Shown here: piece after piece, positions 13,295 through 38,825 of the stretch | How positions within the stretch are numbered: the first letter of the stretch is position 1 | Layout: every line of letters starts with the position of its first letter | Assembly (NCBI GenBank): GCA_016783445.1 | Contig: JADHWO010000015.1 | Span: 1-45,019 of the forward strand | Direction: 5' to 3' | Length of the DNA stretch: 45,019 nucleotides | DNA from: Candidatus Aminicenantota bacterium | GTDB taxonomy: Bacteria > Acidobacteriota > Aminicenantia > Aminicenantales > Aminicenantaceae | Notes under the pieces: generated by a model | What the model was told of the DNA's origin: nothing | The model's database searches: none | The model's input: the letters and a program-made list of their open reading frames with translations, nothing else | Program-made: the position numbers and the translations under genes

Positions 13295-13298
13295 TTTT

Positions 13299-14489: not shown

Positions 14490-15233
14490 CTAAATATACT
14501 GACCTCCATCGACCTTGATCACTTCCCCAGTTATATGCTTGGCTTTCTCACTGCAAAGGAATGAGACCAAATGGGCAATATCCTCAGGCTGTCCAAGGCG
14601 GTTAAAAACTGTCTCTTCAGCAGCCTTTTGTTTAAACTCTTCTGAAAGTTCTTTAAACATATCTGTCAAAATCATTCCCGGGGCTACTGCATTAACATTC
14701 ACGCTGTATTTCCCCAGTTCCTTGGCTACAGTTTTGGTCAAACCAATTGCTCCGGCTTTAGCAGCAGAATAATTCGTCTGGCCGAATTTACCCCTTAGGC
14801 CATTTATAGAAGTGATGTTCACGATCTTTCCAGACTTTTGCTCTCTAAAAGTGGGGGCAACTGCCCTTATGAAATTAAAGGTCCCTTTAAGATCAACATT
14901 AATAACAGCATCCCATTGTTCTTCAGTCATCTTCCAGATAACCCCATCCCAGTTCATTCCAGCATTACTGATCAGAATATCCATATGACCAAATTCATCG
15001 ATAACTTGTTTCACCAGCTTCTGGACTGCACCAAAATCAGATACATCAACTTTATATTCCTGAGTTTTGCGGCCCATGGCTTTTATTTGTTCAACAACCG
15101 CCTTGGCTTCCTTCTCATGCCTGCGGAATGTTAAAGCAACATCTGCTCCGTTCCGGGCTAAATCCAGGGAAATCTCTGTGCCGATGCCCAGGCTGCCGCC
15201 AGTGACAAGGGCAACTTTTCCATCTAAATCCAT
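14490..15233 (-). CDS. Short-chain dehydrogenase/reductase (3-oxoacyl-ACP / acetoacetyl-CoA reductase-like)
   Basis: 247 aa; TGGSLGIG, NAGMNWDG, YSAAK active site, VDGGQYI C-terminus. Confidence 0.9.
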   Translation of the reverse strand: MDLDGKVALVTGGSLGIGTEISLDLARNGADVALTFRRHEKEAKAVVEQIKAMGRKTQEYKVDVSDFGAVQKLVKQVIDEFGHMDILISNAGMNWDGVIWKMTEEQWDAVINVDLKGTFNFIRAVAPTFREQKSGKIVNITSINGLRGKFGQTNYSAAKAGAIGLTKTVAKELGKYSVNVNAVAPGMILTDMFKELSEEFKQKAAEETVFNRLGQPEDIAHLVSFLCSEKAKHITGEVIKVDGGQYI

Positions 15234-19032: not shown

Positions 19033-21312
19033 TTATTTTTTTTCTTCCTTTTTTTTCTCTTTGAGTGCTTCAAGAACCTTCTCCGGAGTTATAGGAAGAT
19101 TCTTAATACTGAGTCCTGTTGCATGAAACACTGCATTGCCCAGAGCACCTGCTGTCGGATTCGTAAGACCTTCCCCTGCCTCCTTGGCTCCAAATGGCCC
19201 TTCAGGTTCATATGTCTCTACTTCGATAACCTTTGTTTCCGGCATCTCCGTAGCCCTCAGAACTTTATAATCAACTAAATTCGGGTTTAAAATTTTTCCT
19301 TCATCCATAGGCAGGTCTTCGGTAAAACCATACCCTGCTGCCATGGCCATGGCACCTTCAAGCTGTCCTTTAACCCCTAAAGGATTTATCACCTGTCCAC
19401 AGTCATGTGCAGTTACACAATTTTTCAGTGTTATCTTACCTGTATCCGGATCAACTTCTGCATCAACAGCCTGTACTCCAAAACTGTATGCCGGTGATAT
19501 CATGCCTTTGCGGTGTGGAGTATAATGTCCTCTGGCTATAATAGGCTGACCATCCTTTCCTCTTATAGCTTCCTTGACAACATCATAATACGAAAGGCCT
19601 CGCTCAGGGCGAGCAATAAGGTGGACCCACCGATCCTTAATATCCAGGTCATAAACAATATTCGGAGACAGCTTCGCCGCTGCATACTCGATGATTTGCT
19701 GTTTGGCCTTTGCAGCAGCCATTTTAACAGCATTCCCCTGCATTAATGTCTCCCTGCTTCCCCAGGCACCAAGGTCTACCGGGCAACTTTCAGTATCTCC
19801 CATATGAAGCCGAATGTCTTCGACTTGTACTCCCAACTCTTCTGCGCAGATCATGGTCATTGTGGTATTCGAACCCTGCCCCATATCTTGAGATCCAATA
19901 TAGAGGTCAACCTTTCCATCAATTTTTACCTGAATCACAGCGGAGGAAAAGGCATAAGGTGTATCAAACCAGTTAAAAATCCCTCCTGACATGAAACCAT
20001 AAGCAGCAATACCAATCCCTCGATTAGGAGGGAGTTTCCCTTGTGATTTGATCCACTTCTCTATTTTATCGAGACACTGGCTGAGGCCGCAACTCTGAAT
20101 CGTTGCCTGCCCGGGAACTTCGTAACCGGGGTACATGGCATTCTTCCGCCTGATCTTTATGGGATCGATCCCCAGGTCATTCGCTATTAAATCAATCTGA
20201 GTTTCTGCACAAAACGTTGCCTGGGGAGCTCCAAAACCCCGCATCGCTGAAGTAGGCGCCGTATTTGTGTAGACCCTGTATCCATCATACCGGTAACTCG
20301 GCCAGACATAGGGAAACGCCTGGAAAAATCCTGTAAGATAGAGGGCTGTTGCTCCCATTGAGGTATACGCACCTCCTTCGGTAAAAACCCGGCCTTCTTT
20401 TGCTAAAAAAGTACCATCCTTCTTAACACCTGTCCTCAAATAATAGAACATAGGTGTGCGGCGTTTGGTCGCCATAAATTCTTCCTCACGTGTGAGGATG
20501 ATCTTTACAGGTTTGAATAGCTTCATGGACAGAAGCGAACTGCAGAACTGAGCCGAATCAAGTTCAAACTTGCTTCCAAAACCTCCTCCTGTATAGCGCG
20601 AAATCACTCTGACATCATTCTCTCTCAGTCCAAGCACCCATGATAACAAAACCTGAATATAGTAGTGGGACTGGGTTGACGTCCACACGGTTAATTTTTT
20701 ATCAGGTGTAAAACTAGCCACTGCATTATGAGTCTCCATACATACATGGTGCTGCGATGAACACCTGAACCAATCTTCACGAACATGGTCTGCCTTTTTA
20801 AATCCTTCGTCCACATCGCCCCATTCAATATGGCGCGTTACATTTATATTTCTTTCAGCATGTTCGTGGAGCTGCGGGGCTCCTTGTTTTATAGCCTCGA
20901 GAGGCCCGAATACGCCTGGTAGAGATTCATACTCAACCTCAATCAAATCCAGAGCTTCTTCAGCCGTATCTTCATCAACCGCTGCTACGGCTGCCACAGG
21001 CTCTCCGATGTAGCGGACTTTGCTTCTTGCGAGGATTTCTTCATCGCAGAGTTCCTTAAAACGCCTCCAAATTCCCTGTTTTATTCCAAGTGTATCTTTA
21101 CCGGTAACAACTGCTTTTACTCCTGTTAAGCCTTCAGCTTTTTTTGTGTTTATCTTGAGGATCTTTGCATGGGGATAGGGGCTTCTCAAGATCTTACCAT
21201 ACAGCATATGGGGCAACTTGATGTCAAAGGCATACTCTGCTCTACCGGTTATTTTTGCTATTCCATCAATATTATGAATGGGAGTGTTTATGACTGAGTA
21301 CTTCTTCATCAT
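19033..21312 (-). CDS. Molybdenum hydroxylase, molybdopterin-binding large subunit
   Basis: 759 aa; RYTGGGFGSK, SAMRGFGAPQA, QDMGQGSNTTM, GPFGAKEAGEGL. Confidence 0.92.
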   Translation of the reverse strand: MMKKYSVINTPIHNIDGIAKITGRAEYAFDIKLPHMLYGKILRSPYPHAKILKINTKKAEGLTGVKAVVTGKDTLGIKQGIWRRFKELCDEEILARSKVRYIGEPVAAVAAVDEDTAEEALDLIEVEYESLPGVFGPLEAIKQGAPQLHEHAERNINVTRHIEWGDVDEGFKKADHVREDWFRCSSQHHVCMETHNAVASFTPDKKLTVWTSTQSHYYIQVLLSWVLGLRENDVRVISRYTGGGFGSKFELDSAQFCSSLLSMKLFKPVKIILTREEEFMATKRRTPMFYYLRTGVKKDGTFLAKEGRVFTEGGAYTSMGATALYLTGFFQAFPYVWPSYRYDGYRVYTNTAPTSAMRGFGAPQATFCAETQIDLIANDLGIDPIKIRRKNAMYPGYEVPGQATIQSCGLSQCLDKIEKWIKSQGKLPPNRGIGIAAYGFMSGGIFNWFDTPYAFSSAVIQVKIDGKVDLYIGSQDMGQGSNTTMTMICAEELGVQVEDIRLHMGDTESCPVDLGAWGSRETLMQGNAVKMAAAKAKQQIIEYAAAKLSPNIVYDLDIKDRWVHLIARPERGLSYYDVVKEAIRGKDGQPIIARGHYTPHRKGMISPAYSFGVQAVDAEVDPDTGKITLKNCVTAHDCGQVINPLGVKGQLEGAMAMAAGYGFTEDLPMDEGKILNPNLVDYKVLRATEMPETKVIEVETYEPEGPFGAKEAGEGLTNPTAGALGNAVFHATGLSIKNLPITPEKVLEALKEKKKEEKK

Positions 21313-21791
21313 TCTTCCTCCTTGTACTTACCTTCAGCTACTGCTTTTATAGCTCTGATAATGCTGTTATAACCGGTACAGCGACAGATATTACCGTGAA
21401 TGGCCTCTTTTATTTGTTTCTTCGTCGGACTCGGCTTTTCATTTATCAATGCTGTTGCTGATATTAACATCCCCGAGGTGCAGAAACCGCATTGATAGGC
21501 ACCGTGATCCAGGAATGACCTCTGAATTGGACTAAGTTTTCCTCCTTCTGCCAGCCCTTCCACGGTAGTCACCTCGGTGCCGTCGGCCTGCATCGCCAAA
21601 ATCGAACATGACTTAACTGTTACACCATTAAGCAGCACCGTGCATGCACAACACGCTCCAGTGTTACATCCCCTTTTTGTGCCCGTAAGCTCCAGCTCAT
21701 CTCTCAGTACCTCAACCAGCAGTCTTTTAGGCTTAACGTAGAGTTCGTGGTATTCGTTGTTGACTGTTATACGTAACAATTGCTTTTCCAT
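21309..21791 (-). CDS. Molybdenum hydroxylase, [2Fe-2S] small subunit
   Basis: 160 aa; GCNTGACCACTVLLNG, CGFCTSGM, CRCTGY; stop overlaps the next start (ATGA). Confidence 0.95.
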   Translation of the reverse strand: MEKQLLRITVNNEYHELYVKPKRLLVEVLRDELELTGTKRGCNTGACCACTVLLNGVTVKSCSILAMQADGTEVTTVEGLAEGGKLSPIQRSFLDHGAYQCGFCTSGMLISATALINEKPSPTKKQIKEAIHGNICRCTGYNSIIRAIKAVAEGKYKEEE

Positions 21792-21805
21792 ATTCAGAGG
21801 CCTCC

Positions 21806-22687
21806 TTATCGGGCTGGTTTTCTGGCCTGATCCCAGGCTTTCCTCACCATTCTTTTTGTAAGAGCTTCGACTAAATGTCTTCTATATTCCTCGCTAGCAT
21901 GAATATCAGCAACAGGGTCAGCTTCCTTTGAAGCCCTCTTGCCGATTTTCTCGAGCAAGCCATTATTTAACTTCTGCCCTATTAACAACTTCTCTGCTTT
22001 TTTTGCCCGGATGGGGATTGAGGCAGCTGCTCCGAGAACAATCCGCGCGTCTTTGCAACTGGAACCTTTTTTTTCCATAGTTATTGAAACAGCAACCGAT
22101 ACAATGCCCTGATCGTTCTTAATGATATTAAACTTCTCATATACAGTGGCTGTTCTTGGAGGGACAACTGGAAACTGGACTTCAAGCAGAAGTTCACCAT
22201 CCTCGAGTACTGTCTCAAAGTAGTCGATAAAGAATTCTTCCAGTGGAATAGACCTTTCTCTTTCACTATTGGCTATTTTTACTGTGGCATTTAAGGCAAT
22301 AAATACTGGTCCCGGATCGCCTGCAGGGTCTCCATGAGCAAGATTCCCGCCAATAGTCCCCCAGTTGCGGGTTTGAACAGAAGCCAGGTTCTTTTCCATG
22401 CTAACCAACACAGGGTAGTGCTTCTTGACTGACGATGATTTTTCTATGTCACTGTGGGTAGTGGCAGCACCAATCTTTAGCCCATCTTTAGGTTTAAAAT
22501 TGATATAACTAAGCTCTTCAATACTCTTGATATCGATGAGATTTGCCGGTGCAACTAATCCCTGGCGCATCAGAATAAGTAGTGACTGCCCGCCACAAAT
22601 GATCTTGTAGTTTTCCTTGTGCTCTTCAAGTAAATCAAGAGCCTCCTTTACAGTCTTTGCTTTTGAATAAACAAAATCCCGTATCAT
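21806..22687 (-). CDS. Molybdenum hydroxylase, FAD-binding medium subunit
   Basis: 293 aa; KIICGGQSLLILMRQG, TIGGNLAHGDPAGDPGP. Confidence 0.92.
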   Translation of the reverse strand: MIRDFVYSKAKTVKEALDLLEEHKENYKIICGGQSLLILMRQGLVAPANLIDIKSIEELSYINFKPKDGLKIGAATTHSDIEKSSSVKKHYPVLVSMEKNLASVQTRNWGTIGGNLAHGDPAGDPGPVFIALNATVKIANSERERSIPLEEFFIDYFETVLEDGELLLEVQFPVVPPRTATVYEKFNIIKNDQGIVSVAVSITMEKKGSSCKDARIVLGAAASIPIRAKKAEKLLIGQKLNNGLLEKIGKRASKEADPVADIHASEEYRRHLVEALTKRMVRKAWDQARKPAR

Positions 22688-23240: not shown

Positions 23241-23438
23241 ATGGAATTTATTTTACCTACTCTGAAGTTCATTACCTATATGGGAATCGGAATGATTGTT
23301 TTGGGAGCCCTCGTTTTTCTCGGGATATTAAAAGGGAGCCGAAGTCCGCAGAACTTCTCAAATAAAAAGGTTTTATCCAAAACTCCATTCCTACCGCCAA
23401 AAAAACAAAATCATCTAGTAGTCTTTGCCTTTTTTTAA
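23241..23438 (+). CDS. Possible small single-TM protein
   Basis: GGAGG 5 nt upstream of ATG; MEFILPTLKFITYMGIGMIVLGALVFLGILKGSRSPQNF... Confidence 0.3.
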   Translation: MEFILPTLKFITYMGIGMIVLGALVFLGILKGSRSPQNFSNKKVLSKTPFLPPKKQNHLVVFAFF

Positions 23439-24853
23439 GTGAGTGTTTTAATCTTTCTCCTGTCAAAGATTGAAACCAGGGAAAAAGTCAACAGGCTTAC
23501 GATCCAGCAGAAATATATCGGGTGTGAAAGACTAATATTTTTAAAAAAGGAAGCCACTTGTGGGAAAATAAACCATAGGGCAAGAGCAGCCATAGACATG
23601 AGTAGAGTCCAGGTGGCATGAGCGCGCCTGCAAATCTTAGGCCAGAATAGGGTCATTAAAGTCACTAAAGTATAAGCAGTGGTCAAGGAAAGGCCGAGAA
23701 GCAATGTATTTAGAATACCAGTGTCAGAAACTAAAACAGCAAGAATGTATGTAAAAACACTTAAAATAAAAACTGAAATTTGAGAGATAATCCTCTCTCC
23801 CCTCTCTTTAAGGTCAGGAGCGAAAAACCTTTTGATTATATCTCCCACAACCAGAGTAGCACTCCCAACAAGGAGGGCAGAAGCAGTTGATACATCAGCA
23901 GCCCAGAGTCCAGCTAGAACAAGACCTGCTATCACAGGGCTTAGGCTCAAAACCATACGAGGCAGAGCTTCAGTGGGTACAATTCCTGGATGAAGAACAG
24001 CGGCAGAAAGACCTATAACAGCACTTATAAAACCCACAGGGAGAATAATCAGTCCCGCTAAAATGAAACCTTTGCTGGCAGAAGAGGGATCTTTGGCGGC
24101 AAAAGAAATCTGAACAACAGACTGGACCGAAAAGACCATAGTACACATCACAACAAACCACGCGAAGATAATCGGCAATCCAATTCCTCCTAAATCAAAA
24201 CCCGGATGTTGAGGAGGAAGTTTGGCCACAAGCTCTCCAAGTCCTCCTATCTTTACTATTGCCAAAGCCGCTCCCACAAGAACTCCTGTATAGATGAGAA
24301 TCACATTTATGATATTGGTCAAACCTGCCGCCCAGAAGCCACCGATCAATGTTATCCCCACAAAAACCAATGCAGTAATAAACATTCCAGTCTTTAAACT
24401 AAATACATTAGGCAGAAGGGAAGAAAGGATAGCACCACCTGCAACATACTGAACAGAAACAATGACTATCTGCAGGACAAGCTGTCCGAAAGCACCTACA
24501 ACCCTGCCTGAGACGCTGTAATGTCTTTCAAAAAGCTCTGGGAGAGTGCTAACTTCCATCTGACGGTATCGGCGGGCAGCGATAAGTCCCACTAGAATTG
24601 CCCCTGCAGCCCAGGCAGCATTATACCAGCCTGCAGATATTCCACTTTTGTAGGCCATCTCAGCCACTCCAACCGTTGAAGCACCTCCTACAGCCAGACC
24701 GGTAAGAAGGGGGGCAACCACCCAGAAAGGAAGGCTTCGGCCAGCCAAAAGATAAGCGATCATCCCTCCCCGGCTGAGACGGCGGGTCACCCAGGTAATT
24801 ACATAGAGAAGAATAATGTAAAAACAGACAATGCCTAAAGGAATCCAGTTCAT
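23435..24853 (-). CDS. Sodium:solute symporter (SSS) family transporter
   Basis: 472 aa, multi-TM; LAGRSLPFWVVAPLLTGLAVGGASTVGVAEMAYKSGISAGWYNAAWAAG and WAADVSTASALLVGSATLVVGDI. Confidence 0.87.
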   Translation of the reverse strand: MNWIPLGIVCFYIILLYVITWVTRRLSRGGMIAYLLAGRSLPFWVVAPLLTGLAVGGASTVGVAEMAYKSGISAGWYNAAWAAGAILVGLIAARRYRQMEVSTLPELFERHYSVSGRVVGAFGQLVLQIVIVSVQYVAGGAILSSLLPNVFSLKTGMFITALVFVGITLIGGFWAAGLTNIINVILIYTGVLVGAALAIVKIGGLGELVAKLPPQHPGFDLGGIGLPIIFAWFVVMCTMVFSVQSVVQISFAAKDPSSASKGFILAGLIILPVGFISAVIGLSAAVLHPGIVPTEALPRMVLSLSPVIAGLVLAGLWAADVSTASALLVGSATLVVGDIIKRFFAPDLKERGERIISQISVFILSVFTYILAVLVSDTGILNTLLLGLSLTTAYTLVTLMTLFWPKICRRAHATWTLLMSMAALALWFIFPQVASFFKNISLSHPIYFCWIVSLLTFSLVSIFDRRKIKTLT

Positions 24854-24869: not shown

Positions 24870-25033
24870 GGGTTTGATAAATTAAATCCCCACTCATTTT
24901 TTACCCAGTAAGATTGCCACACTCCTTTCGGTCACTCGCAGTGACATTCTTTCCTATTCAGTAAAAAAATGTGGGTTTGGTGAATCAAGCCCCTATAATA
25001 TACGCCATACGATGAGCTTGATGAATCAAGCTC
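24870..25033. repeat. Three small palindromes plus one interspersed REP-like element
   Basis: gggtttgataaattaaatccc (24870-24890), gggtttggtgaatcaagccc (24973-24992), gagcttgatgaatcaagctc (25014-25033), and agattgccacactcctttcggtcactcgcagtgac (24911-24945). Confidence 0.75.
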
Positions 25034-27110
25034 CTACAATTTTTAGGCGGGCATCAACAACTACAGTTTCCTTACTTTTCTCAAAAGCAAAAACAGGATT
25101 CAAATCCATTTCGTCTATTTCAGGGAAATCAGAAACAAGCTGAGAAAGCCGAATCAGAATTTCAATCAATCTATTTATATCCACAGCTTTCTCCCCTCTT
25201 GTGCCTTCCAGAATGGCGTAACCCTTGATGGAACGAATCATCTCCAAAGCATCTTCTTCGGAAAGTGGAGCCATTCTGAATTGAACATCCTTTAGTGTCT
25301 CGACAAAAATTCCACCCAGTCCAAACATAAGGGTCGGCTGGAGTCCCTCATTCCTTTTAGCTCCCAAAATCACTTCTTTGCCGCCTTCAAGATACTCCTG
25401 GAGAATAAAACCAGGTTTTTGTTTCTCAAACTTCCTGGCCATTTTTTTAAAAGCAGCCTGAAGTGAAGCTTTATCTTTTATATTAACAGCAACACCCCCT
25501 ACTTCTGTTTTATGGATAATCGATTCAGCATCAACCTTTAAAACAAGAGGATATTTAAGTTTCTGAATGGCTTTCTCGAGCTCATCTTCTTTATCTATTC
25601 TTGTTGTTGTCACGGTTGGAATTCCGTAACATTGGAGAATCTTAAAAACATCATCCTGAGGGATAAACTTATCTTTACCTTTATGGCGGCTTAAAACTGA
25701 TTCTGCTTTGCTTTTATCAATTTCGAATTTTTTAAAGGAAGGTGCTTTTCTTTGAGTGATTTTCCCATATTCAGTCATTGCAGAGAGAACTCTGGCGGCT
25801 GTTTCAGCAAAATCATAAACTGGAATACCGCTTTCTCTGATGAGGCGGATAACTTCAGCCCATTTCTCTATGGTTATCACCTGGCAGACGATGGGTTTAT
25901 CAGAAGCCTTCCCAATCTCCCCGAGTTTTCGGGCTATGCCTTCACAATCAACAAAGGGGGCTGTTACAAAAACAAGAAGGAGAGAATCAATATTCGGATC
26001 TTTGAGAAGAGCCTCTACTGTACCGCCATACTGCTCAGGACCTGCTGTGGCAACAACATCCACAGGATTAGAGACAATAGCTTCCTGAAAGACAAGCTTT
26101 CCCAGGATTTCCTTGGTTTGAGAACTCAACTCGGCTAACTTAAGCCCAGCTGAGATACATTCGTCTACAGCAATTATTGCCGGGCCTCCTGTATTAGTTA
26201 CAATCACAACTCTGTCCCCTTTTGGAACTGGTTGATTAGAAAAAGCAACAGCTGCATCAATCATATCCTCTTGAGAATGAAAGCGCAGAACGCCGCTCTT
26301 TTTAAAAATCACATCCGCTATCGTCTCTTGTTCGATCAAAGAACCGGTGTGAGAAGCAACAGCTTTTGTTCCTTCAGATGTTTTTCCTGTCTTTAAGGCA
26401 AGGATGGGTTTCTTTGGAGTTACCCGGTTTGCCACTTCAAGAAAACCAGCAGGGTCTTTAAGAGTTTCTATGTGAACCATGATTACTTTTGTATCTTCAT
26501 CCTGGCCGTAATAATCAATAATTTCATTCATGCTCACATCCGCTTCGTTCCCGAAACTCGAATACATCCTAATTCCTTTCCCGATCCGATAAAGATGCAA
26601 TTTTAATGTTTCTCCCACTCCCCCACTCTGAGCAACAATGGAGATATTACCAGGACTCATGGGCACAAAAGTGAAATTTGCATAAACTGAGACTTCTGGA
26701 TCAGAATTCTGAATGCCCTGGGAGTTTGGTCCATAAATACGCATTCCATATTTATGGGCAATCTTTACAATCTGCTTTTCAAGCTTTAGCCCTTCCTCTC
26801 CTACTTCTTTAAAACCAGCCGTATGAACAATTGCAAACTTCACTCCCTTCTTGCCGCATTCCTCGAGAACTAAGGGAACTAATGTATTTTTAATAGAAAT
26901 ATTTACGAGGTCTACCTCATCGGGGATATCAGTAACAGACGGATAAGCTCTAAAACTTTTAATATATTTTGATTTAGGATTTATAGGGTATATAGGGCCT
27001 TTAAAATTGTGGTCAAGAAGATTCTGGAGAACAATATGGCCAATGCTCAAAGGATTATTTGAAGCTCCAATGATTGCCACAGATTTTGGTTTAAATAGTG
27101 CATCAAGCAT
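25026..27110 (-). CDS. Acyl-CoA synthetase (NDP-forming), fused alpha/beta type
   Basis: 694 aa; LFKPKSVAIIGASNNPLSIGHIVLQNLL, GPNSQGIQN, SQSGGVGE, SHTGSL, C-terminal ATP-grasp PLVLKVDAESIIHKTEVGGVAVNI. Confidence 0.92.
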   Translation of the reverse strand: MLDALFKPKSVAIIGASNNPLSIGHIVLQNLLDHNFKGPIYPINPKSKYIKSFRAYPSVTDIPDEVDLVNISIKNTLVPLVLEECGKKGVKFAIVHTAGFKEVGEEGLKLEKQIVKIAHKYGMRIYGPNSQGIQNSDPEVSVYANFTFVPMSPGNISIVAQSGGVGETLKLHLYRIGKGIRMYSSFGNEADVSMNEIIDYYGQDEDTKVIMVHIETLKDPAGFLEVANRVTPKKPILALKTGKTSEGTKAVASHTGSLIEQETIADVIFKKSGVLRFHSQEDMIDAAVAFSNQPVPKGDRVVIVTNTGGPAIIAVDECISAGLKLAELSSQTKEILGKLVFQEAIVSNPVDVVATAGPEQYGGTVEALLKDPNIDSLLLVFVTAPFVDCEGIARKLGEIGKASDKPIVCQVITIEKWAEVIRLIRESGIPVYDFAETAARVLSAMTEYGKITQRKAPSFKKFEIDKSKAESVLSRHKGKDKFIPQDDVFKILQCYGIPTVTTTRIDKEDELEKAIQKLKYPLVLKVDAESIIHKTEVGGVAVNIKDKASLQAAFKKMARKFEKQKPGFILQEYLEGGKEVILGAKRNEGLQPTLMFGLGGIFVETLKDVQFRMAPLSEEDALEMIRSIKGYAILEGTRGEKAVDINRLIEILIRLSQLVSDFPEIDEMDLNPVFAFEKSKETVVVDARLKIVGA

Positions 27111-27111
27111 T

Positions 27112-27885
27112 TTAACCTCCTTTTGCTTCTAAAGCATACAACGCCGCTCCAAAAGCGCCAGTTAATTGAGGATGAGGGGGTATAAATATCTTTTTCCCTA
27201 ATTTTTTTTCAAACATACTTACTAAAAAAGGATTATAAGCCACCACTCCCCCGCTCATTACTATATTCCCTTCCAAAGGGTCCATCTCAAGAGCCCTTTT
27301 TATGACCGAGCCAAAAATACCTTTGACAAGGTCCTTTATTTCAACGCCTTCTCTAATTCTAGTCAGAATTTCTGTTGCTGAAAATACTGTGCAGTAACTT
27401 CCAATCTGTATATCTCTCTCTGACTTCTCTGCAAGCCCATTAAGCTTTTCTATCTTAATTTGGAGGCGATTGGCCATCTCCTCAAGAAAAGCTCCTGTAC
27501 CCGCAGCGCACTTCCGGTTCATCTTGAATCCTGTTCTTTTTCCAGAATCATTAACTTTTATGATTTTATTATCCTGCCCGCCAATATCAATCAACGTGTG
27601 GGCATGAGGGAAATAAAAAAAACTGCCTCTGGCATGACAGCTGATTTCAGTTCTTGATTTGTCAGCAAAAGGAACATTTCTCCTTCCATATCCAGTTGCC
27701 ACGACAAATTTAGCCGGCTCCTTTCTCCTGGCTTTTTTTTGTGATTCTTCAAAGACCTGCTCAGCCGCAGCTTTAAAATCAGCACCAGAATAGGTTAAAG
27801 AATAGCCAAGAACTTTTTTCTCTTCATCAATAATGACTGCTTTAGTAGTGGAAGCTCCAACATCAATCCCAACAAAATAATTCAT
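27112..27885 (-). CDS. Activase ATPase of the BcrA/BcrD/BadF/HgdC family
   Basis: 257 aa; FVGIDVGASTTKAVIID, DIGGQDNKIIKV, NRKCAAGTGAFLE, SGGVVAYNPFLV. Confidence 0.92.
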   Translation of the reverse strand: MNYFVGIDVGASTTKAVIIDEEKKVLGYSLTYSGADFKAAAEQVFEESQKKARRKEPAKFVVATGYGRRNVPFADKSRTEISCHARGSFFYFPHAHTLIDIGGQDNKIIKVNDSGKRTGFKMNRKCAAGTGAFLEEMANRLQIKIEKLNGLAEKSERDIQIGSYCTVFSATEILTRIREGVEIKDLVKGIFGSVIKRALEMDPLEGNIVMSGGVVAYNPFLVSMFEKKLGKKIFIPPHPQLTGAFGAALYALEAKGG

Positions 27886-28119
27886 TGTTTATTAATATGA
27901 GTTATGACTAGCAAGTTCGTAATCCAGGAAAATTTTTCACAGGCAATTCCGCATACTCCTATCTTCATGACATCCCTCTCATCTCGATATTTTTTATATC
28001 AAGGAAGTTAATTTCATTATTCCCTTGAGATTGTCACGCTCCTTTCTCTCGCCTGGCTTTGCAGATACGGAGACAAAGTTGCTAATACATCTCCTTATTC
28101 TCTCGAGTTTTCCGATCTT

Positions 28120-29364
28120 TCATTTCGTTTCTAATTGCTCAATAAAAGCTTCTATATTGGTCTTAGCCTGTTCTTCTGAATAGCACCGCAAGTCATTCAA
28201 ATCGCCATTTATAGTAAGAGAAGGAATATTCAATTTTTTCTCGAGCCTTTCAGGCATTCCATAGCGGTTATTGGAATTATTCGGGCACGTTTTTGCATCA
28301 TGGAACAAAATCCCATCTAGCTTGTATTTACGGACCATTTCCTCGATATATTTCTCTTTGAAATTCTCATCTCTGACAATAAATATCTCTGTATAAGCCC
28401 GGGCCATACTCATAAAGGGATCCTCTGGGTCAAAAGAATCAAAGATCCAGCTGTTGCAGTAGGTCGAGGCAACAACAGCTGTTTTGAATCCTATAAAAAA
28501 TTCAGCAAGGTTTCTTAGTTTCCCCCAGATAGGCATCCCTTCCCAGTAAATGCGGAATTTTTCCCCTTCCACAGCTCCATCTTTTTTAGCATTTTTCTCC
28601 TCAAGTTCCTTAAGGAGCACTTTATAATACTCCACAGCCTGGGGAGAGCCTCTTAAAACAACGGCAGGCCCCATATGAATCGTAGCGTCAAAAAAACTTA
28701 TAGGTGCAGGGATAGCTGCATTTGCTTCGAGAACTTTTTTCCACATCAGGGTACAGTCTTTGGAGAGAGAAAGGACACTTCGGAACTTATCAATATCAAA
28801 TTTATTCCCTGAAATCTTTTCTAACGGAGGAATCAAGTCTTTAGTCTGTTGAACAATACCCTGAAGATGAGAATCAGTTATCTTTCCTATATTACGATAA
28901 GTGGATATTCCTATGGCTGGAACTCCAAGCTCTCTTGAATACCAGTTGAACCAATCCTGTACATCGCGGCATTGGTTGGTGTTGTATACAAGCACATCAG
29001 GTTTAGCAATCCCTTCAATTCCCTCATAAGCCCGGGAAAGAGGTGTTTCTTTTTTTATAAAAGCGCCAACATCACTCGTCAGGTAAGAGCAGATATCCGG
29101 AGAATAGCCAACAGCATTAGCCACGGGAATATAGTCGTTTGCAGTCCGGGAAGATCCTAATACAGCTCCATGATTCTCTGGATAATGGACAAGAAATCCT
29201 AAGCTCAACAAGAGCTCAGCAGGTCCGACACTGGAGCACCATGCAATTTTGGGTGAGTCCTCTTTCGCGGCATCATTCAATTCGTAGAAATAATCAGCCA
29301 TTATTTTCCTCAAAAAACCGGTGGCTTGAATTTTCTTGATAGCGATTTTCTTTTCTTCGCTCAT
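28120..29364 (-). CDS. Benzoyl-CoA reductase / 2-hydroxyacyl-CoA dehydratase family subunit (BcrB/HgdB-like)
   Basis: 414 aa; three candidate cluster-ligand Cys (DICSYLTSD, TNQCRDVQDW, DAKTCPNNSNN), IYWEGMPIWGKLR, VVASTYCNSWIFD, NGDLNDLRC. Confidence 0.87.
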   Translation of the reverse strand: MSEEKKIAIKKIQATGFLRKIMADYFYELNDAAKEDSPKIAWCSSVGPAELLLSLGFLVHYPENHGAVLGSSRTANDYIPVANAVGYSPDICSYLTSDVGAFIKKETPLSRAYEGIEGIAKPDVLVYNTNQCRDVQDWFNWYSRELGVPAIGISTYRNIGKITDSHLQGIVQQTKDLIPPLEKISGNKFDIDKFRSVLSLSKDCTLMWKKVLEANAAIPAPISFFDATIHMGPAVVLRGSPQAVEYYKVLLKELEEKNAKKDGAVEGEKFRIYWEGMPIWGKLRNLAEFFIGFKTAVVASTYCNSWIFDSFDPEDPFMSMARAYTEIFIVRDENFKEKYIEEMVRKYKLDGILFHDAKTCPNNSNNRYGMPERLEKKLNIPSLTINGDLNDLRCYSEEQAKTNIEAFIEQLETK

Positions 29365-29752: not shown

Positions 29753-30703
29753 TTACAGCACTCTGACTCTGTTCCTACCCTCTTTTTTTGCCAAGTAAAG
29801 AGCCTCATCTGCCCTCTTCACCAAACTCTTTCTGGTATCTCCCTCTATAAACTCTGCAATGCCGGCACTTATGGTAATATGGCCCACTTTAGTAAAAGAA
29901 GCCTTTTTTATGATTTTTCTTACTCTTTCTATTTGTATCTTTGCTCCTTCAAGATTCGTTTCAGGGAGTATTATAACAAACTCCTCTCCGCCATATCTGG
30001 CAAATGTGTCTGTTATTCTTATGTCTTTTCTGATGAGCCCTGTCATCCTCTTGAGCACATAGTCTCCTGCTTCATGTCCATATATGTCGTTTACTTTTTT
30101 GAAGTGGTCAATATCCAGGATTACAACAGAAAGAAATCTATTATACCTTTCAACTCTTCTTATTTCCTGATCCAGAAGTTCTGAAAATTTCCTCCTGTTG
30201 TAAATACTGGTAAGAGGATCTGTTTCTGCCATTTTCTCTGCCTGTCTTTGTTTAGTGAAATCACGAACAATTGCCAGAATTTCTTCTTCTCTACTTGCTT
30301 TGATTCTCGCCTCGAAATGGTGAATTTTCTCGTTTACAGCCAGTCTATACTGAAAAATCTGCGTCTCGCCTGTTACAACTGCAAGCTTCATACAATGCAT
30401 AAACTGTTCTGCAATCTTTTTATCGAACACATCATACACATTTTTCCCTATAAATTCGCCGGGATGTTTCCATAAACTAAATTCTTTTGCAGGAATGATC
30501 TCCAGAAAAATCCCACTTTTAGAAAGGCGAAATATTAAATCAGGTATTGCAATCAGGAGAGATCTGTTTATTTCTTCTCTCCTGCGCAGATCTTCCTCTG
30601 CTTGACAACGATCCTTATCTGAAATTTCCAATTCAGCAATTCTCTGGCGCAAATCTTTCAATTCATGTATAAGCTGATTTTTTGTTTTCCCATCATCTTT
30701 CAT
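29753..30703 (-). CDS. PAS-like sensor diguanylate cyclase
   Basis: 316 aa; DPLTSIYNRRKF, RITDTFARYGGEEF (I-site RxxD plus active GGEEF), SAGIAEF, ADEALYLAKKEGRNRV. Confidence 0.92.
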   Translation of the reverse strand: MKDDGKTKNQLIHELKDLRQRIAELEISDKDRCQAEEDLRRREEINRSLLIAIPDLIFRLSKSGIFLEIIPAKEFSLWKHPGEFIGKNVYDVFDKKIAEQFMHCMKLAVVTGETQIFQYRLAVNEKIHHFEARIKASREEEILAIVRDFTKQRQAEKMAETDPLTSIYNRRKFSELLDQEIRRVERYNRFLSVVILDIDHFKKVNDIYGHEAGDYVLKRMTGLIRKDIRITDTFARYGGEEFVIILPETNLEGAKIQIERVRKIIKKASFTKVGHITISAGIAEFIEGDTRKSLVKRADEALYLAKKEGRNRVRVL

Positions 30704-30930: not shown

Positions 30931-31710
30931 ATGACTCAAAAAAATTTTGAACATATTGTTTTTGAAACCAAAGAAAGCAAGGCATTCTTAACCATTAACC
31001 ACCCTCCCTTGAATATTCTGAATATTTCTGTGATGGAAGAAATAAACCAAGCTTTAAGTTCTCTTATTGACAACAAAGAGGTCAGAGTCCTGGTCATATC
31101 CAGCAGCGGAGAAAAAGCCTTTTCAGCAGGAGTGGATGTATCTGATCATACAAAAGAAAAAGTAGATAAAATGCTTCAGGTTTTTCATGATATCTTCCGC
31201 AACCTTTCAAAATTAGATCAGGCAACTGTAGCTGCTGTTAAAGGATTAACCCTGGGCGGGGGGTGTGAAATTGCTCTTTTCTGCGATTTGATATTTGCAG
31301 CTGACAATTTGAAGATCGGACAGCCTGAAATAAAACTTTCCGCTATCCCACCTATTGCTCTCCTGATTTTACCTCGCCTTATAGGATTAAAAAGAGCTTC
31401 TGAGCTCCTTTTAACCGGCAAAACTATAAATGCAATTGAAGCTGAGAGAATCGGCTTGGTTAACAAAGTTGTTCCCCTTGCCTCTTTCGATTCAGAACTG
31501 GAGAATTTTATTCACCCTATTACGGAATTAAGCCTTGTAGGATTAAAACATTCAAAAAAAGGAATTAATCTGGGTTTAGAGACAAACTTTTTAGAAGGAT
31601 TAGAGATAATTGAAAAATCCTATCTTGAAGAACTAATGGCCTCCGAAGATGCCCACGAAGGGATAAAAGCCTTTATGGAAAAAAGGAAGCCTCTCTGGAA
31701 AAACAAATAA
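30931..31710 (+). CDS. Enoyl-CoA hydratase family; cyclohexa-1,5-dienecarbonyl-CoA hydratase (Dch/BamR)-like
   Basis: 259 aa; AFSAGVDVSDHTKEKVDKMLQVFHDIFRNL, LGGGCEIALFCD, IGQPEIKLSAIPPIALLILPRLIG, LEELMASEDAHEGIKAFMEKRKPLW. Confidence 0.7.
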   Translation: MTQKNFEHIVFETKESKAFLTINHPPLNILNISVMEEINQALSSLIDNKEVRVLVISSSGEKAFSAGVDVSDHTKEKVDKMLQVFHDIFRNLSKLDQATVAAVKGLTLGGGCEIALFCDLIFAADNLKIGQPEIKLSAIPPIALLILPRLIGLKRASELLLTGKTINAIEAERIGLVNKVVPLASFDSELENFIHPITELSLVGLKHSKKGINLGLETNFLEGLEIIEKSYLEELMASEDAHEGIKAFMEKRKPLWKNK

Positions 31711-31721
31711 AGGAGGAATAA

Positions 31722-32750
31722 ATGAAAGCAGCTGTATTTCATGGGCCTAACCAGCCTCTAAAAATAGAAGAGGTCGAAACCCCAAAAATATATTTTCATG
31801 AAATTTTAGTAAAAGTTGCAGCTTGTGGAGTGTGTAATACTGACCTGCATTACATAGACCATGGTGTTCCAACTTTTAAAAAGCCCCCCATGATATTGGG
31901 TCATGAACCTTCTGGGATAGTTGAGGACGTTGGTGCTCAAGTCAAAAACTTTAAGGTTGGAGACCATGTTCTCATTCCGCCTGTTTTCTCTTGCGGCCAC
32001 TGTGCTAACTGCCGAGAGGGACGAGAGAATATATGTCTTAACATGATCATGTTGGGTAATAACATTGACGGTGCTTATGCTGAATATGTTAAAGTGCCTG
32101 CAAAAGATTGTCAGCATCTGCCAGAAGAGCTTCCTCTTGAAGAATCAAGTATTATAGCTGACGCCATCTCCACCCCTTATCACGCTGTTAAGAACAGAGC
32201 ACAAGTCCAACTAGGCGATTCAGTCGTTGTTTATGGATGCGGAGGAGTTGGAATAAATGTTGTCCAAATGGCTGCAGCTGCTGGAGGTTTAGTCATTGCA
32301 GTGGATATTGTGGATAATAAATTAGAGATAGCCAGAAGTTTAGGAGCCAGGCATACCATCAATGCATCCAATAAAGACGATAAAACGCTGCTCAAAGAAA
32401 TAAGAGAGCTTACAGGAGGAGGAGCAGATATTTCTATTGAAGTTATCGGCAATCCAAAAACAATCGAAATGGGTCCTAGTTCCCTGAGAGCAGGGGGACG
32501 TCATTGTCAGGTAGGTTACTCATCTAAAGCTGTACCTCTTAATGCTGGAAGGCTGATGTTTCGAGAGATCGAAATCAGAGGCTCCTTAGGCTGCAGGCCG
32601 GTGGACTATCCTAAAATCATAGAAATGGTAAAGATCGGAAAAATTCAACTTAAACCTGTGGTGACCAATAAGTTCAAGCTTGAAGATATAAACAAGGCCT
32701 TTGATTTATTAAGAAAAGGAGAAGCCCTTAGATCCATCATTGTTATCTAA
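31722..32750 (+). CDS. Zn-dependent alcohol dehydrogenase; candidate 6-hydroxycyclohex-1-ene-1-carbonyl-CoA dehydrogenase (Had/BamQ)
   Basis: 342 aa; CGVCNTDLHYID, GHEPSGIVEDVG, CGHCANCREGRENIC, VVYGCGGVGINVVQMA; 11 nt downstream of the Dch-like gene. Confidence 0.65.
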   Translation: MKAAVFHGPNQPLKIEEVETPKIYFHEILVKVAACGVCNTDLHYIDHGVPTFKKPPMILGHEPSGIVEDVGAQVKNFKVGDHVLIPPVFSCGHCANCREGRENICLNMIMLGNNIDGAYAEYVKVPAKDCQHLPEELPLEESSIIADAISTPYHAVKNRAQVQLGDSVVVYGCGGVGINVVQMAAAAGGLVIAVDIVDNKLEIARSLGARHTINASNKDDKTLLKEIRELTGGGADISIEVIGNPKTIEMGPSSLRAGGRHCQVGYSSKAVPLNAGRLMFREIEIRGSLGCRPVDYPKIIEMVKIGKIQLKPVVTNKFKLEDINKAFDLLRKGEALRSIIVI

Positions 32751-34388: not shown

Positions 34389-35168
34389 CTATTTTCCTTT
34401 AAACTTGCCTTTCCTCTTCTCAAGGAAAGCAGAAACTCCCTCCTTTTTATCCTCTGTAGTACAGGAGAGGGCATGAAGATAAGACTCAAGCGCAAAACCT
34501 GAGGCTGTGTCCCCTTCTTGGCTTCTATTTACCGCTTCTTTTGCGTATCTTACTGCTAAAGGTGGTCTTGAGGCAATTTTTTGGGCAAGCTCCATCACCT
34601 TTTCCATCAATTCCTCAAGAGGAAATACTTTATTTACTAATCCTATCCTGAAGGCTTCCTGGGCATCTATAAAATCTCCGGTGAGTATCAATTCCATGGC
34701 CCGGCCCAGCCCTATTAACCGGGGCAGTCTCTGGGTCCCACCGTCGCCTGGAATAATCCCCAGCTTAACCTCAGGGGCACCAAATTGTGCCTTATCCGAA
34801 CAGATTCTGATGGAACAAGCTAAAGCCAGTTCAAGGCCTCCTCCAAGGGCATACCCGTTAACCGCAGCAATAACAGGAATTTGGAGGTTTTCTATATGCG
34901 AAAAAATTTCCTGCCTTTCTTGTGAAACCTTCCGCCCTTGGCGGGCATCACGGTCAACAAGCTCCTTGATATCAGCTCCTGCTACAAAAGCTTTATCCCC
35001 TTTCCCAGTTATTATCAGCACTCTCAGCCCTTCATCTTTCTCGATATCGTCAAGAAGCTTGCTTAATTCAGATGTCAGTTCATTGGAAATTGCATTCAGC
35101 TTATCAGGCCGATTGATTGTCAGGATACCGATGTTATCTTTTTTCTCATAGATAAGTGTTTTATACAT
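34389..35168 (-). CDS. Enoyl-CoA hydratase (crotonase)
   Basis: MYKTLIYEKKDNIGILTINRPDKLNAIS, FVAGADIKEL, NGYALGGGLELALACSIRI, PEVKLGIIPGDGGTQRLPRLIG. Confidence 0.92.
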   Translation of the reverse strand: MYKTLIYEKKDNIGILTINRPDKLNAISNELTSELSKLLDDIEKDEGLRVLIITGKGDKAFVAGADIKELVDRDARQGRKVSQERQEIFSHIENLQIPVIAAVNGYALGGGLELALACSIRICSDKAQFGAPEVKLGIIPGDGGTQRLPRLIGLGRAMELILTGDFIDAQEAFRIGLVNKVFPLEELMEKVMELAQKIASRPPLAVRYAKEAVNRSQEGDTASGFALESYLHALSCTTEDKKEGVSAFLEKRKGKFKGK

Positions 35169-35182
35169 GTCCCACTCCAAGC

Positions 35183-36337
35183 CTAAACAAAAGCTTTGAT
35201 TCCAAGTTCAATGGCACCGATGATCAGCTGTTGAATCTGGGAAGTACCTTCATAAAGGGTATTAATTCTGGCATCCCGGTAAAAACGTTCCACATCGTAC
35301 TCTCCGGAAAAGCCATAACCCCCGTGGATCTGTACAGCTTTGTAAGCCACCCGGTTTACCATCTCACTGCAGTAGTATTTAGCTATAGATGTCTCCCTGG
35401 TATTGGGGAGTTCTTTGTTTTTCATATCTCCTGCACGGTAGACAAGGAGACGACCTGCTTCGCATTCGACAACCATGTCTGCAATCATCTGCTGGACAAG
35501 CTGAAAGCTAGCTATAGGCTTTCCAAACTGTATTCTTTGTTTAGCATATTCTTTGCAGATGTCTATACACCCTTGAGCTGCTCCAACACATCCAGCAGCC
35601 ACAGTAAAACGGCCAAAATCAAGGGTTCCCAGGGCAACCTTAAAACCTTTATTAATCTCACCCATGACATTTTCTTTAGGAACGCGGCAATTCTCCAGGA
35701 AAATCTCTCCTGTATTAGATGCACGAAGACCTAATTTATCATGGAGGTCCCCTGTCGAGAATCCCTCAAATCCTCTTTCTACCAGAAAGGCTGTGATTCC
35801 TTTAGCTCCTGCTTCTTTGTCTGTCTTGGCATAGACAACTGCCAGATCAGCGATTCCGGCATTTGTAATCCAAGTTTTTTGGCCGTTGAGAATATAATAA
35901 TCTCCATCTTCCTTGGCAGTCGAAGTCATGCTGACAGGATCACTTCCCGCATCTGGCTCTGTTAAGCCAAAACACCCAATCCATTCTCCACTGGTCAGTT
36001 TAGGAAGGTACTTTTTCTTTTGTTCTTCACTGGCATACTTAAAAATGGGAAGCTCCACAAGGGACACCTGTACAGAATAAGTCCCCCGCAGAGAGGAATC
36101 TACTCTGCCTATTTCTTCGGCTACAATGGCATGACTTATAAAATCAAATCCTGCCCCTCCGTACTCTTCGGGAATCGGTGTGCCCATAAAGCCAAGCCCT
36201 GCCAATTTTTTAAAAAGATCGCGAGGGAATTGAGCCTTTTTATCGTTTTCACTCGCCACAGGTGCAATTTCTTCCTTGGCAAATTTACGGATTGTACCCT
36301 GTATCATTTTTTGTTCTTCATTTAAATCAAAATCCAT
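35183..36337 (-). CDS. Acyl-CoA dehydrogenase, glutaryl-CoA dehydrogenase-like
   Basis: 384 aa; RGTYSVQVSLVELPIFKYASEEQKKKYLPKLTSGEWIGCFGLTEPDAGSDPVSM; catalytic-region YEGTSQIQ. Confidence 0.87.
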   Translation of the reverse strand: MDFDLNEEQKMIQGTIRKFAKEEIAPVASENDKKAQFPRDLFKKLAGLGFMGTPIPEEYGGAGFDFISHAIVAEEIGRVDSSLRGTYSVQVSLVELPIFKYASEEQKKKYLPKLTSGEWIGCFGLTEPDAGSDPVSMTSTAKEDGDYYILNGQKTWITNAGIADLAVVYAKTDKEAGAKGITAFLVERGFEGFSTGDLHDKLGLRASNTGEIFLENCRVPKENVMGEINKGFKVALGTLDFGRFTVAAGCVGAAQGCIDICKEYAKQRIQFGKPIASFQLVQQMIADMVVECEAGRLLVYRAGDMKNKELPNTRETSIAKYYCSEMVNRVAYKAVQIHGGYGFSGEYDVERFYRDARINTLYEGTSQIQQLIIGAIELGIKAFV

Positions 36338-36425
36338 AGCACACTCCTTTCTATGAGGCTTTAATTGTTATTGTGAGTAGTTAAAGAAAGCATGGCAATC
36401 TTATAGAAAAAAGGATTAGCTTTAT

Positions 36426-37277
36426 TTAATACTTATAGAATCCTTCGCCTGCCTTTCTCCCCAGTTTCCCATCGGCAATCATCTTCCTGATTATTTCCGG
36501 AGGCCTATAACGCTCATCCTTTAACTTTGCATACAATGTTTCCATTTTAGCCAAATGGATATCCAGACCAATCATATCAATGAGGGCTAAAGGGCCCATA
36601 GGAAGTCCAGCCCCAAGCTTCATAGCTTCGTCAATATCCTGAGGAGAAGCTATGCCATCGGCATAAACAGCAGCAGCTTCATTCAGCATCCCGGCTAAAA
36701 CACGGCTGACTATCCCGGCTGGTGCTTCCTTTGCCGTGGCAATCGGAACCTTGCCCAGATCTTCGGCAAACTTTTTTGTTACGGCAATTGTATCTTCAGA
36801 GGTTTTTTCACCGCGGATGATTTCAACTAATTTCATAATAACTGCCGGATTGAAAAAATGCATCCCGATAACCTTGTCAGGACGCAATGTGGCTGAAGCG
36901 ATCTCGCTCACTGAAAGAGCTGTAGTATTAGAGGCTAAAATCGTTTCAGGTGAACAGATAGAATCCAACTTTGCAAACACTTCCTTCTTTACATCAATAT
37001 TCTCAGATATAGCTTCAACAACAAAGTCACATTCCCGGGCTTGGTCCATGTCTGTAGACCAATTCATCCGGGAGAGAACCGACTCCATATCCTCCTGAGT
37101 AATTTTCCCTTTTTCCACCCGTCTGTTTAAACCTGTCTTGACCTTTTCTCTCGCTTTCCCAACTATATCATCAGAGATGTCAACCAAAGTCACGTCATAA
37201 CCCTGCTGAGCACAAAGTTGTCCTACACCAGAACCCATGATTCCTGTGCCTATAACAAAAGGCTTTTTAATATCCAT
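36426..37277 (-). CDS. 3-hydroxybutyryl-CoA dehydrogenase
   Basis: 283 aa; VIGTGIMGSGVGQLCAQQGYDVTLVDIS, LASNTTALSVSEIA, GMHFFNPAVIMKLVEII, GLPMGPLALIDMIGLD. Confidence 0.93.
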   Translation of the reverse strand: MDIKKPFVIGTGIMGSGVGQLCAQQGYDVTLVDISDDIVGKAREKVKTGLNRRVEKGKITQEDMESVLSRMNWSTDMDQARECDFVVEAISENIDVKKEVFAKLDSICSPETILASNTTALSVSEIASATLRPDKVIGMHFFNPAVIMKLVEIIRGEKTSEDTIAVTKKFAEDLGKVPIATAKEAPAGIVSRVLAGMLNEAAAVYADGIASPQDIDEAMKLGAGLPMGPLALIDMIGLDIHLAKMETLYAKLKDERYRPPEIIRKMIADGKLGRKAGEGFYKY

Positions 37278-37459
37278 TGTTATTCCTCCATGTTTAAATA
37301 ACCTGAATTATTCATAAAAACTGCCGATGCCATCATTCACTCTCAATAATATCAATTCTCTAGCATGACTTTTTTTTAATTCTAGAACATCACTCTGTCT
37401 TTTAAATTCATCTATATCAATCATCGGCATTTTTTACTCTTCGAGCGAGCCGATCTCAT

Positions 37460-37634
37460 GAGATTGCCGCGTCGCCTCGCTCCTCGCAACGACGTCTACG
37501 GCAACCTCGACCCGTGAATAATCCAGGTTAAATAATCAAAATATTAAACTTAAAGCGGGTTTGATGAATCAAACCCCTATGAACTCTTGCAGGAAAAATG
37601 GGGCCTGTCCCCATTTTTTTTGAATCAAGTCCCC
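37460..37634. repeat. Cluster of REP-like and palindromic repeats
   Basis: gagattgccgcgtcgcctcgctcctcgcaacgac (37460-37493); gggtttgatgaatcaaaccc (37557-37576); aaaaatggggcctgtccccattttt (37594-37618); half palindrome tgaatcaagtcccct from about 37621. Confidence 0.7.
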
Positions 37635-37640
37635 TGCTTA

Positions 37641-38825
37641 TTAAGCCAGCCTTTCTATGACTATAGCTACGCCCTGCCCTCCTCCGATACACAGGCTTAC
37701 CAATCCCATGTTTTTATCCTGACTCTGTAAAGCATAGATTAAGGTGGTCAATATTTTTGCTCCGGTTGCACCCACGGGATGGCCAAGAGCTATGGCTCCT
37801 CCATGGACGTTAACCTTAGAGCGATCCCACTTAAGTTCTCTTTCTACAGCCAGAATCTGTGCTGCAAAGGCCTCATTAAGCTCAATGATGTCGATATCTT
37901 TAAGTTCGAGTCCTGCACGTTCCAAAGCTTTGGAAACAGCTGGTACAGGTCCTATTCCCATAACTGCCGGGTCAACTCCTGCGTGTGCATAAGAGACAAT
38001 CCGCGCTAAAGGTTTAACTCCCAGCTCTGATGCTTTCTCCTCTTTCATAACCAGGACCGCAGCGGCAGCATCACAAAGAGCACAACTGTTTCCAGCAGTA
38101 ACCGTACCATCCTTTTTAAAAACAGGCTTAAGTTTTGCCAGCTTCTCCGCTGATACTCCCTCCCTTGGAATTTCCTCTGTATCAAAGGTCTCTGTTTGAC
38201 CTTTTTTTACAGGTACATCCACAGGGAGTATTTCTTCTTTGAACTTTCCTTCTTTTACTGCATTAACCGCTTTAGTCTGGCTTTCTGCGGCAAAAGCATC
38301 CTGTTCTTCCCGGCTTATATTGTATTTTTCAACCAGTGTTTCTGCCGTCACTCCCATAAGATGGCCTGCCAAAGGACACATAAAACCATCCATATGCATG
38401 AGGTCAGCCAATTTACTGTCTCCCATGCGGTTCCCCCATCTCGCTCCAACAGCAATGTAAGGAATCTGGGAAGTATTTTCAGCTCCGCCAGCTAAAACCA
38501 CTTCTGCGTCTCCTGCTTTAATCATCTGGACAGCAAGAGAAACCGCCCTAAGAGAAGAACCGCAGCGCTTGTTTACAGTAAAGGCAGGAACTTCATGAGG
38601 CAACCCTCCTTTTACAGTGACAAGACGCCCTATGTTTGGCCCAAGTCCAGCCTGCCAGCCTGTGCCAAAAACCACCTCATCTACCTGTTTAGGTTCAATC
38701 CCACTCCTTCGAACAGCCTCTTGAACAATAAGAGCTCCTAGCTCTACAGCAGAAACTCTTTTAAATGCACCACCAAATCCTCCTCCAGCTGTCCTGACCG
38801 CACTTGTTATGACAATATCACTCAT
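37641..38825 (-). CDS. Acetyl-CoA acetyltransferase (classical thiolase)
   Basis: 394 aa; NKRCGSSLRAVSLA, NEAFAAQ, HGGAIALGHPVGATGAKIL, CIGGGQGVA. Confidence 0.95.
   Translation of the reverse strand: MSDIVITSAVRTAGGGFGGAFKRVSAVELGALIVQEAVRRSGIEPKQVDEVVFGTGWQAGLGPNIGRLVTVKGGLPHEVPAFTVNKRCGSSLRAVSLAVQMIKAGDAEVVLAGGAENTSQIPYIAVGARWGNRMGDSKLADLMHMDGFMCPLAGHLMGVTAETLVEKYNISREEQDAFAAESQTKAVNAVKEGKFKEEILPVDVPVKKGQTETFDTEEIPREGVSAEKLAKLKPVFKKDGTVTAGNSCALCDAAAAVLVMKEEKASELGVKPLARIVSYAHAGVDPAVMGIGPVPAVSKALERAGLELKDIDIIELNEAFAAQILAVERELKWDRSKVNVHGGAIALGHPVGATGAKILTTLIYALQSQDKNMGLVSLCIGGGQGVAIVIERLA

Follow-up and report, generated by a model that had tools for sequence, protein, structure and literature searches.

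Solved relatives from the alpha-type branch of the BCR-I/HAD radical family all need two different catalytic proteins. HadB of Clostridioides difficile pairs with a second subunit, HadC, and is served by a single activase type, HadI (PDB 3o3m, 4eht), with a HadA-type transferase for CoA activation. The phenyllactate dehydratase of Clostridium sporogenes, FldABC with FldI, has a heterodimeric FldBC and ends in arylpropionate (cited in PMC13416013). In heterodimeric dehydratases the cluster of the beta subunit holds the catalytic electron between turnovers (PMC11574389). BzdNOPQ and MbdONPQ (PDB 8s02, 9gai) consist of four different subunits, two catalytic and two activase, with a second cluster in the beta subunit; BzdN carries a double cubane, while the cluster ligands of BzdO are C95, C128 and C380 and its active-site glutamate is E65 (PMC11971306). 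One catalytic protein type and one activase make up the double-cubane system DCCP plus DCCP-R (PDB 6eno, 7yyl). No description of a single-subunit alpha-type dehydratase was found in the open-access literature, which mentions one 'singular' FldB-like gene (30% identity; PMC13416013) and, in ketone-degrading sulfate reducers, the induction of a two-subunit relative, a different arrangement (PMC7888143, PMC8084838).

The stretch of DNA analyzed here (the window) comprises 45,019 nucleotides of contig JADHWO010000015.1 from a Candidatus Aminicenantota bacterium. It encodes on the minus strand one HgdB/HadB-type catalytic subunit with an HGD-D domain (28120-29364; 414 aa; PF06050, 217.8 bits) and one activase, its ATP-dependent electron-injecting partner (27112-27885; 257 aa; PF01869 BcrAD_BadFG, 176.6 bits), both far above cut-off; the activase also scored 242.7 bits against TIGR00241 (cut-off 125.4). 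Both reading frames were borne out as originally predicted, and so were their flanks, an acyl-CoA synthetase on one side and a diguanylate cyclase on the other. The former is an ADP-forming acyl-CoA synthetase (ACD; 25026-27110, minus strand, 694 aa) located 1 bp past the activase gene, and is followed by a sodium:solute symporter (SSF; 23435-24853, minus strand) with a probable role in acid uptake. The latter (29753-30703) is a PAS-GGDEF protein. Its position upstream of the HgdB gene recurs in several Aminicenantes relatives (5/81 loci), and it may be a conserved regulatory neighbor. The gap between the HgdB and activase genes (27886-28119) measures 234 bp and contains a short open start, MKIGVCGIACEKFSW..., while it spans merely 21-63 bp in relatives G004, G023 and G029. 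The corresponding gaps of G012 and G035 hold unrelated insertions with short repeats; the short start showed no similarity to either of them, which gives no support to a gene remnant in the window's gap.

Genes for aromatic degradation surround the pair. 6-Oxocyclohex-1-ene-1-carbonyl-CoA hydrolase (Oah) is encoded at 16825-17955 (minus strand; TIGR03200, 555 bits, above cut-off). On the same strand lie a thiolase (13299-14465) paired with a DUF35/ChsH2 OB-fold protein (12860-13327), an SDR (14490-15233) and a 3-hydroxyacyl-CoA dehydrogenase (15495-16709). A homologous thiolase/DUF35 pair is found immediately 5' of the HgdB gene in Candidatus Aminicenantes bin112 (G012), which shares its family with the window's organism. 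Two 4-hydroxybenzoyl-CoA reductase-like molybdenum hydroxylases are present, again on the minus strand: the first has a fused FeS+Mo subunit (9091-11943) and an FAD subunit (11949-12833) and scored 926 bits against TIGR03194, slightly below the cut-off of 994.6; the second has three subunits (19033-22687; 716 bits, below cut-off). The island carries two distinct enzymes of the xanthine dehydrogenase family, one of them with a 950-aa FeS/Mo fusion. On the plus strand are an enoyl-CoA hydratase-like protein (30931-31710) and a Had-like Zn alcohol dehydrogenase (31722-32750), neither reaching the Dch/Had cut-offs, followed on the minus strand by beta-oxidation genes (34389-38825) for an enoyl-CoA hydratase, an acyl-CoA/glutaryl-CoA dehydrogenase-like protein, a 3-hydroxyacyl-CoA dehydrogenase and a thiolase. 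A PanE/ApbA-type 2-oxoacid reductase resembling D-2-hydroxyacid dehydrogenases is encoded at 6073-7035 (plus strand). To judge from these genes, the set that would lead from aryl-lactate via benzoyl-CoA to ring cleavage is nearly complete, the ring reductase alone being missing. A 269-aa protein without Pfam match (7400-8209) has a homolog adjoining bzdP-bzdQ in G029 (L219, contig C10), and it is retained in the window and in G012 without bzdP-bzdQ; this suggests that a BCR cluster was rearranged or lost in both.

The genome-wide search confirmed the claim of a lone subunit. The assembly that contains the window (G000; 2.89 Mb in 153 contigs, 90% complete) had a single PF06050 match and a single full-length PF01869 match, i.e. 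neither a second HGD-D protein nor a second full activase, and the idea of a partner subunit encoded elsewhere in this genome was rejected. Among 60 relatives searched, 17 contained the solo protein (E < 1e-50). It is the sole HGD-D gene product in 11 genomes from several phyla, namely eight of the window's order (G000 included) and G061, G068 and G069 from other groups. One of these single-gene genomes, G041, reaches 95% completeness with 30 contigs. Together, these genomes make it unlikely that an HGD-D partner is missing. The incompleteness and fragmentation of G000 would leave room for a partner that was missed, either because it is unassembled in the MAG or because it is borrowed from BzdN; given the 11 genomes, and a two-gene unit conserved without an adjacent second HGD-D gene, we regard this as highly improbable. 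One catalytic subunit plus one activase is thus a real, conserved system, set in a ring-degradation island. The HgdB-like protein would act as a homodimer or a monomer. Elsewhere in the sample, the G022 MAG carries two copies of the solo pair (L067, L068; 84% and 83% identical to the window's) in addition to bzdNOPQ, and G007 encodes a natural fusion of an HGD-D-type domain with an activase (L081:8466-11623; 643 aa) beside a second HGD-D protein.

Sequence, fold and phylogeny agreed in assigning the HgdB-like protein to the alpha-type subunits. In a PDB sequence search HadB ranked first (167 bits; 29% identity), followed by MbdO (117), BzdO (74) and DCCP (30). An AlphaFold2 model built from 40 clade members (pLDDT 90.4, pTM 0.90) matched HadB best (3o3m_A; TM 0.88/0.92, rmsd 2.5), then MbdO and BzdO (0.85), DCCP (0.76) and beta-type subunits (about 0.69). 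In a maximum-likelihood tree the solo proteins formed one clade (support 100/100) within an alpha-type group that also holds HadB, MbdO and BzdO (99/99); DCCP, on the beta-type side, and all beta-type subunits fell outside it. Within the alpha group, the solo clade, MbdO and HadB+BzdO form a fork that does not tell HadB from MbdO/BzdO as nearest kin. Scores against the equivalog models of NCBIfam were all below cut-off: HadB 213.9 bits (cut-off 750), BcrB 158 (486.6), BzdO 75.7 (448.6) and the DCCP model NF040772 56 (350). By tree, fold and cluster ligands the protein is an alpha-type subunit in a clade of its own, distinct from the dehydratase and double-cubane clades in which a placement would have spoken against the original prediction. 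Tree, fold and model score ruled out membership in DCCP, and the double-cubane precedent invoked for a two-gene system fails by descent.

Residue conservation was scored over 40 diverse clade members. In the alignment, the three cysteines named earlier occupy the positions of the cluster ligands known from the HadB and BzdO structures and are invariant (40/40 each); the predicted [4Fe-4S] ligands are C92 (C-SYLTSD; codon 29089-29091, minus strand; HadB C84, BzdO C95), C132 (C-RDVQDW; 28969-28971, minus strand; HadB C117, BzdO C128) and C360 (C-PNNSNN; 28285-28287, minus strand; HadB C346, BzdO C380). E63, the counterpart of the active-site glutamates HadB E55 and BzdO E65, is likewise invariant (40/40), and Y94 and Y302 align with the thioester-binding Y97 and Y298 of BzdO. 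The catalytic His131 of BzdO is replaced by V135; this position is Val in HadB and Phe in MbdO, and hence cannot separate reductases from dehydratases. The segment E275-G276-M277-P278-I-W280 (EG-x-P-x-W) resembles EGIPCW of HadB, the equivalents being DTQPPW in BzdO and VGTPCY in MbdO. At the position of HadB Phe39 the solo clade has an invariant glycine (Gly47), which would be compatible with a larger substrate. Beyond the cysteines of HadB, C43 (40/40) and C303 (37/40) are conserved. C43 is common to the solo clade and MbdO, a reductase subunit, and adjoins the position of DCCP C76, and C303 aligns with DCCP C309 and BzdN C263. At two of the six double-cubane positions cysteine is lacking (Ser44 for DCCP C76, a gap for C341), so that a complete double cubane would not be expected.

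When 85,462 species genomes were scanned with a degenerate pattern, 333 stretches with a relative emerged (tblastn E <= 1e-3), some of them perhaps outside the clade. Eighty stretches, 60-88% identical to the window protein, were kept. They derive from Aminicenantes, Zixiibacteria, Neomarinimicrobiota, Desulfobacterota, Chloroflexi, Planctomycetota, Acidobacteria and Elusimicrobia, from the archaeal groups Thermoplasmatota and Lokiarchaeota, and from others. An activase homolog was nearby in 74 of 81 loci, an ACD homolog in 46 and a sodium:solute symporter in 14. Neighbor classes in the 80 named loci were assigned by BLAST to labeled representatives: a CoA-activating enzyme (ACD, AMP ligase, CoA transferase or PaaK-type) occurred in 70 loci and a 2-hydroxyacid dehydrogenase of the PanE or GlcD type in 41; thiolases (26 loci) and hydratases (17) were less common, and Oah (10), Had (9) and Dch (6) rarer still. 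The solo loci mostly employ ACD or AMP ligase where HadBC uses a transferase. The best PDB matches of the PanE neighbor include 3wfi, 3wfj and 5x20, which we take to be D-mandelate dehydrogenase. Gene order varied between groups: (i) GlcD-FeS, HgdB, activase, AMP ligase and thiolase in Desulfobacterota; (ii) AMP ligase, thiolase, HgdB, MaoC, GlcD, AOR, ferredoxin-like protein, PanE and activase in Lokiarchaeota; (iii) HgdB, activase, ACD, SSF, PanE, Had, Oah and Dch in Zixiibacteria (G064; L221); (iv) in a Desulfuromonadaceae MAG, BamH-/BamI-like genes (called from sequence reading, not from a family model), an Oah-Had fusion, Dch, activase, HgdB and ACD, then thiolase, hydratase, dehydrogenase, CoA transferase and PaaK. 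The fusion in this MAG is a natural one of Oah (crotonase) with Had (Zn alcohol dehydrogenase), 749 aa long, beside Dch (L120:4176-6425). In several Zixiibacteria a 696-aa protein (type L100:5871-7961) with no Pfam match and a weakly crotonase-like C-terminus is encoded immediately 5' of the solo HgdB.

The pair was strongly associated with the benzoyl-CoA pathway. Oah was detected in 11 of 17 solo-bearing relatives versus 1 of 43 others (Fisher p 4e-7, an optimistic value as the genomes are related). Complete class I reductases stand beside the solo pair in Aminicenantes, Zixiibacteria and archaea (BzdN 495, BzdO 700, BzdQ 420 bits, each above cut-off). In G004 bzdNOPQ and the pair form one co-directional run, in G063 (Zixiibacteria) a single run of about 25 kb, and in G056, G066, G067 and G070 they are 11-20 kb apart; bzdNO accompanies the pair in G035, G056, G060, G062, G063, G066, G067 and G070, and class II BamB replaces class I in G061, G068 and G069. 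As the pair accompanies either reductase class, an accessory upstream step is a simpler explanation than ring reduction. Of the 11 genomes carrying both pair and Oah, just 4 contained BzdO and none contained BamB; in G000, G012, G023, G024, G029, G030 and G036 Oah was present and neither BzdO nor BamB was detected in the assembly. AFOR proteins of G000 and G012 were rejected as class II BamB, sharing only 26-32% identity with L173, a true BamB-like protein (876 bits to 4z3w). The absence of a reductase is uncertain because the genomes with pair and Oah are 75-91% complete, G012 and G024 are scaffolds with 100-N gaps, and G029 has bzdPQ without bzdNO. Some of these genomes may nonetheless be devoid of a canonical reductase, a residual puzzle that keeps the reductase reading alive.

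Taken together, gene content, missing partner subunit, alpha-type placement, conservation of ligands and glutamate and the conserved neighborhood point, with a probability of about 0.55, to a homodimeric (R)-2-hydroxyacyl-CoA dehydratase of the BCR-I/HAD radical family that feeds benzoyl-CoA. Its substrates, assigned from gene neighborhood alone, are probably aryl-lactates; the neighboring genes speak for 2-oxo/2-hydroxy acid chemistry. Phenyllactate, 4-hydroxyphenyllactate or a similar acid would be taken up by the SSF symporter, or would arise from an arylpyruvate through the PanE- or GlcD-type D-2-hydroxyacid dehydrogenase, and would be converted to its CoA thioester by ACD, AMP-forming ligase or CoA transferase. 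The activase homodimer would hydrolyze ATP and inject an electron into an aqua-[4Fe-4S] cluster on C92/C132/C360 of the HgdB-like homodimer, and the homodimer would dehydrate the thioester to a product of the cinnamoyl-CoA type. Hydratase, dehydrogenase and the thiolase/DUF35 pair would shorten this to (4-hydroxy)benzoyl-CoA, the substrate for Hcr-like dehydroxylation, a BCR and Dch/Had/Oah. The likeness to FldABC is at the level of the proposed reaction, aryl-lactyl-CoA to cinnamoyl-CoA, but the product of the solo pair would go to benzoyl-CoA. Growth on phenyllactate has been shown for a sulfate reducer (PMC5109826) and is a trait of Desulfococcus multivorans; a route to benzoyl-CoA through a phenyllactyl-CoA dehydratase has been put forward (PMC13416013). 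Without a beta cluster, the electron would have to be kept by the second, identical cluster or by renewed activation; its storage is the main mechanistic question for the dehydratase reading. Against a dehydratase stand the seven Oah-bearing genomes without BzdO/BamB, which it would not by itself explain, the conservation of C43 and C303, for which it does not account, and the window's PanE gene, which is 21 kb from the pair although the family adjoins it in other genomes.

One option of the original prediction was a minimal dearomatising reductase, in which homodimer and activase would convert benzoyl-CoA or a substituted aroyl-CoA to the dienoyl-CoA for Dch/Had/Oah. Replacement of BCR by the solo pair was at first favored, as the single contigs of G012 and G024 had Oah and no class I or II reductase. 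Ring genes indeed flank the pair in Zixiibacteria L221, and L120, L134 and L136 (Desulfuromonadaceae-like or other deltaproteobacterial loci) have the Oah-Had fusion or Had, then Dch, activase and HgdB; seven assemblies (G000 included) have Oah without detected BzdO/BamB, and C43 is shared with a reductase subunit. The scaffold gaps, the bzdPQ genes of G029 and the occurrence of both systems in one run weakened the case. The alpha-type family, the ATP-dependent activase and islands are common to the solo pair and BzdNOPQ/MbdONPQ, but the window genome has one catalytic and one activase subunit and the pair offers no second cluster-bearing subunit for a second electron. Further, pairs 82-84% identical to the window's share their island with a complete bzdNOPQ (G004, G022, G032), others accompany class II Bam, and the 2-hydroxyacid dehydrogenase neighbors would be unaccounted for. 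We therefore consider a dearomatising role unlikely, and no less so the narrower proposal that in Aminicenantes with oah and without a canonical reductase the homodimer and activase form a third, minimal ATP-dependent aroyl-CoA dearomatising reductase.

A single-subunit 2-hydroxyacyl-CoA dehydratase might instead act on non-aromatic, branched- or short-chain acids, its location in aromatic islands reflecting shared beta-oxidation. The Desulfobacterota unit, which has no aromatic genes within its 8 kb flanks, and the pair-bearing, Oah-less G041 and G049 would fit such a substrate; the pair's strong statistical and physical tie, across several phyla, to the genes for Oah and BCR, PaaK-type ligases in eight loci and thiolase/DUF35 pairs close by make it improbable. 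The chances are slimmer for another ATP-driven reductase acting like DCCP, for instance in reductive dehydroxylation or enoyl reduction. The two-gene arrangement and the positions of C303 and C43 recall DCCP, but tree and fold exclude that clade, the NF040772 score is far below cut-off and two of the six double-cubane cysteines are absent.

If the dehydratase reading is true, the solo proteins represent a widespread, uncharacterized BCR-I/HAD radical clade with a single catalytic subunit, and a separate electron-storing beta subunit would be dispensable in alpha-type enzymes. The phenylpyruvate/phenylacetate steps were not settled by published proteogenomics (PMC5109826); the pair would put a name to the enzyme for the route by which strict anaerobes convert aryl-lactate (phenylalanine, tyrosine) to benzoyl-CoA. 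Metagenome annotation, moreover, can easily mislabel solo proteins as benzoyl-CoA reductase.
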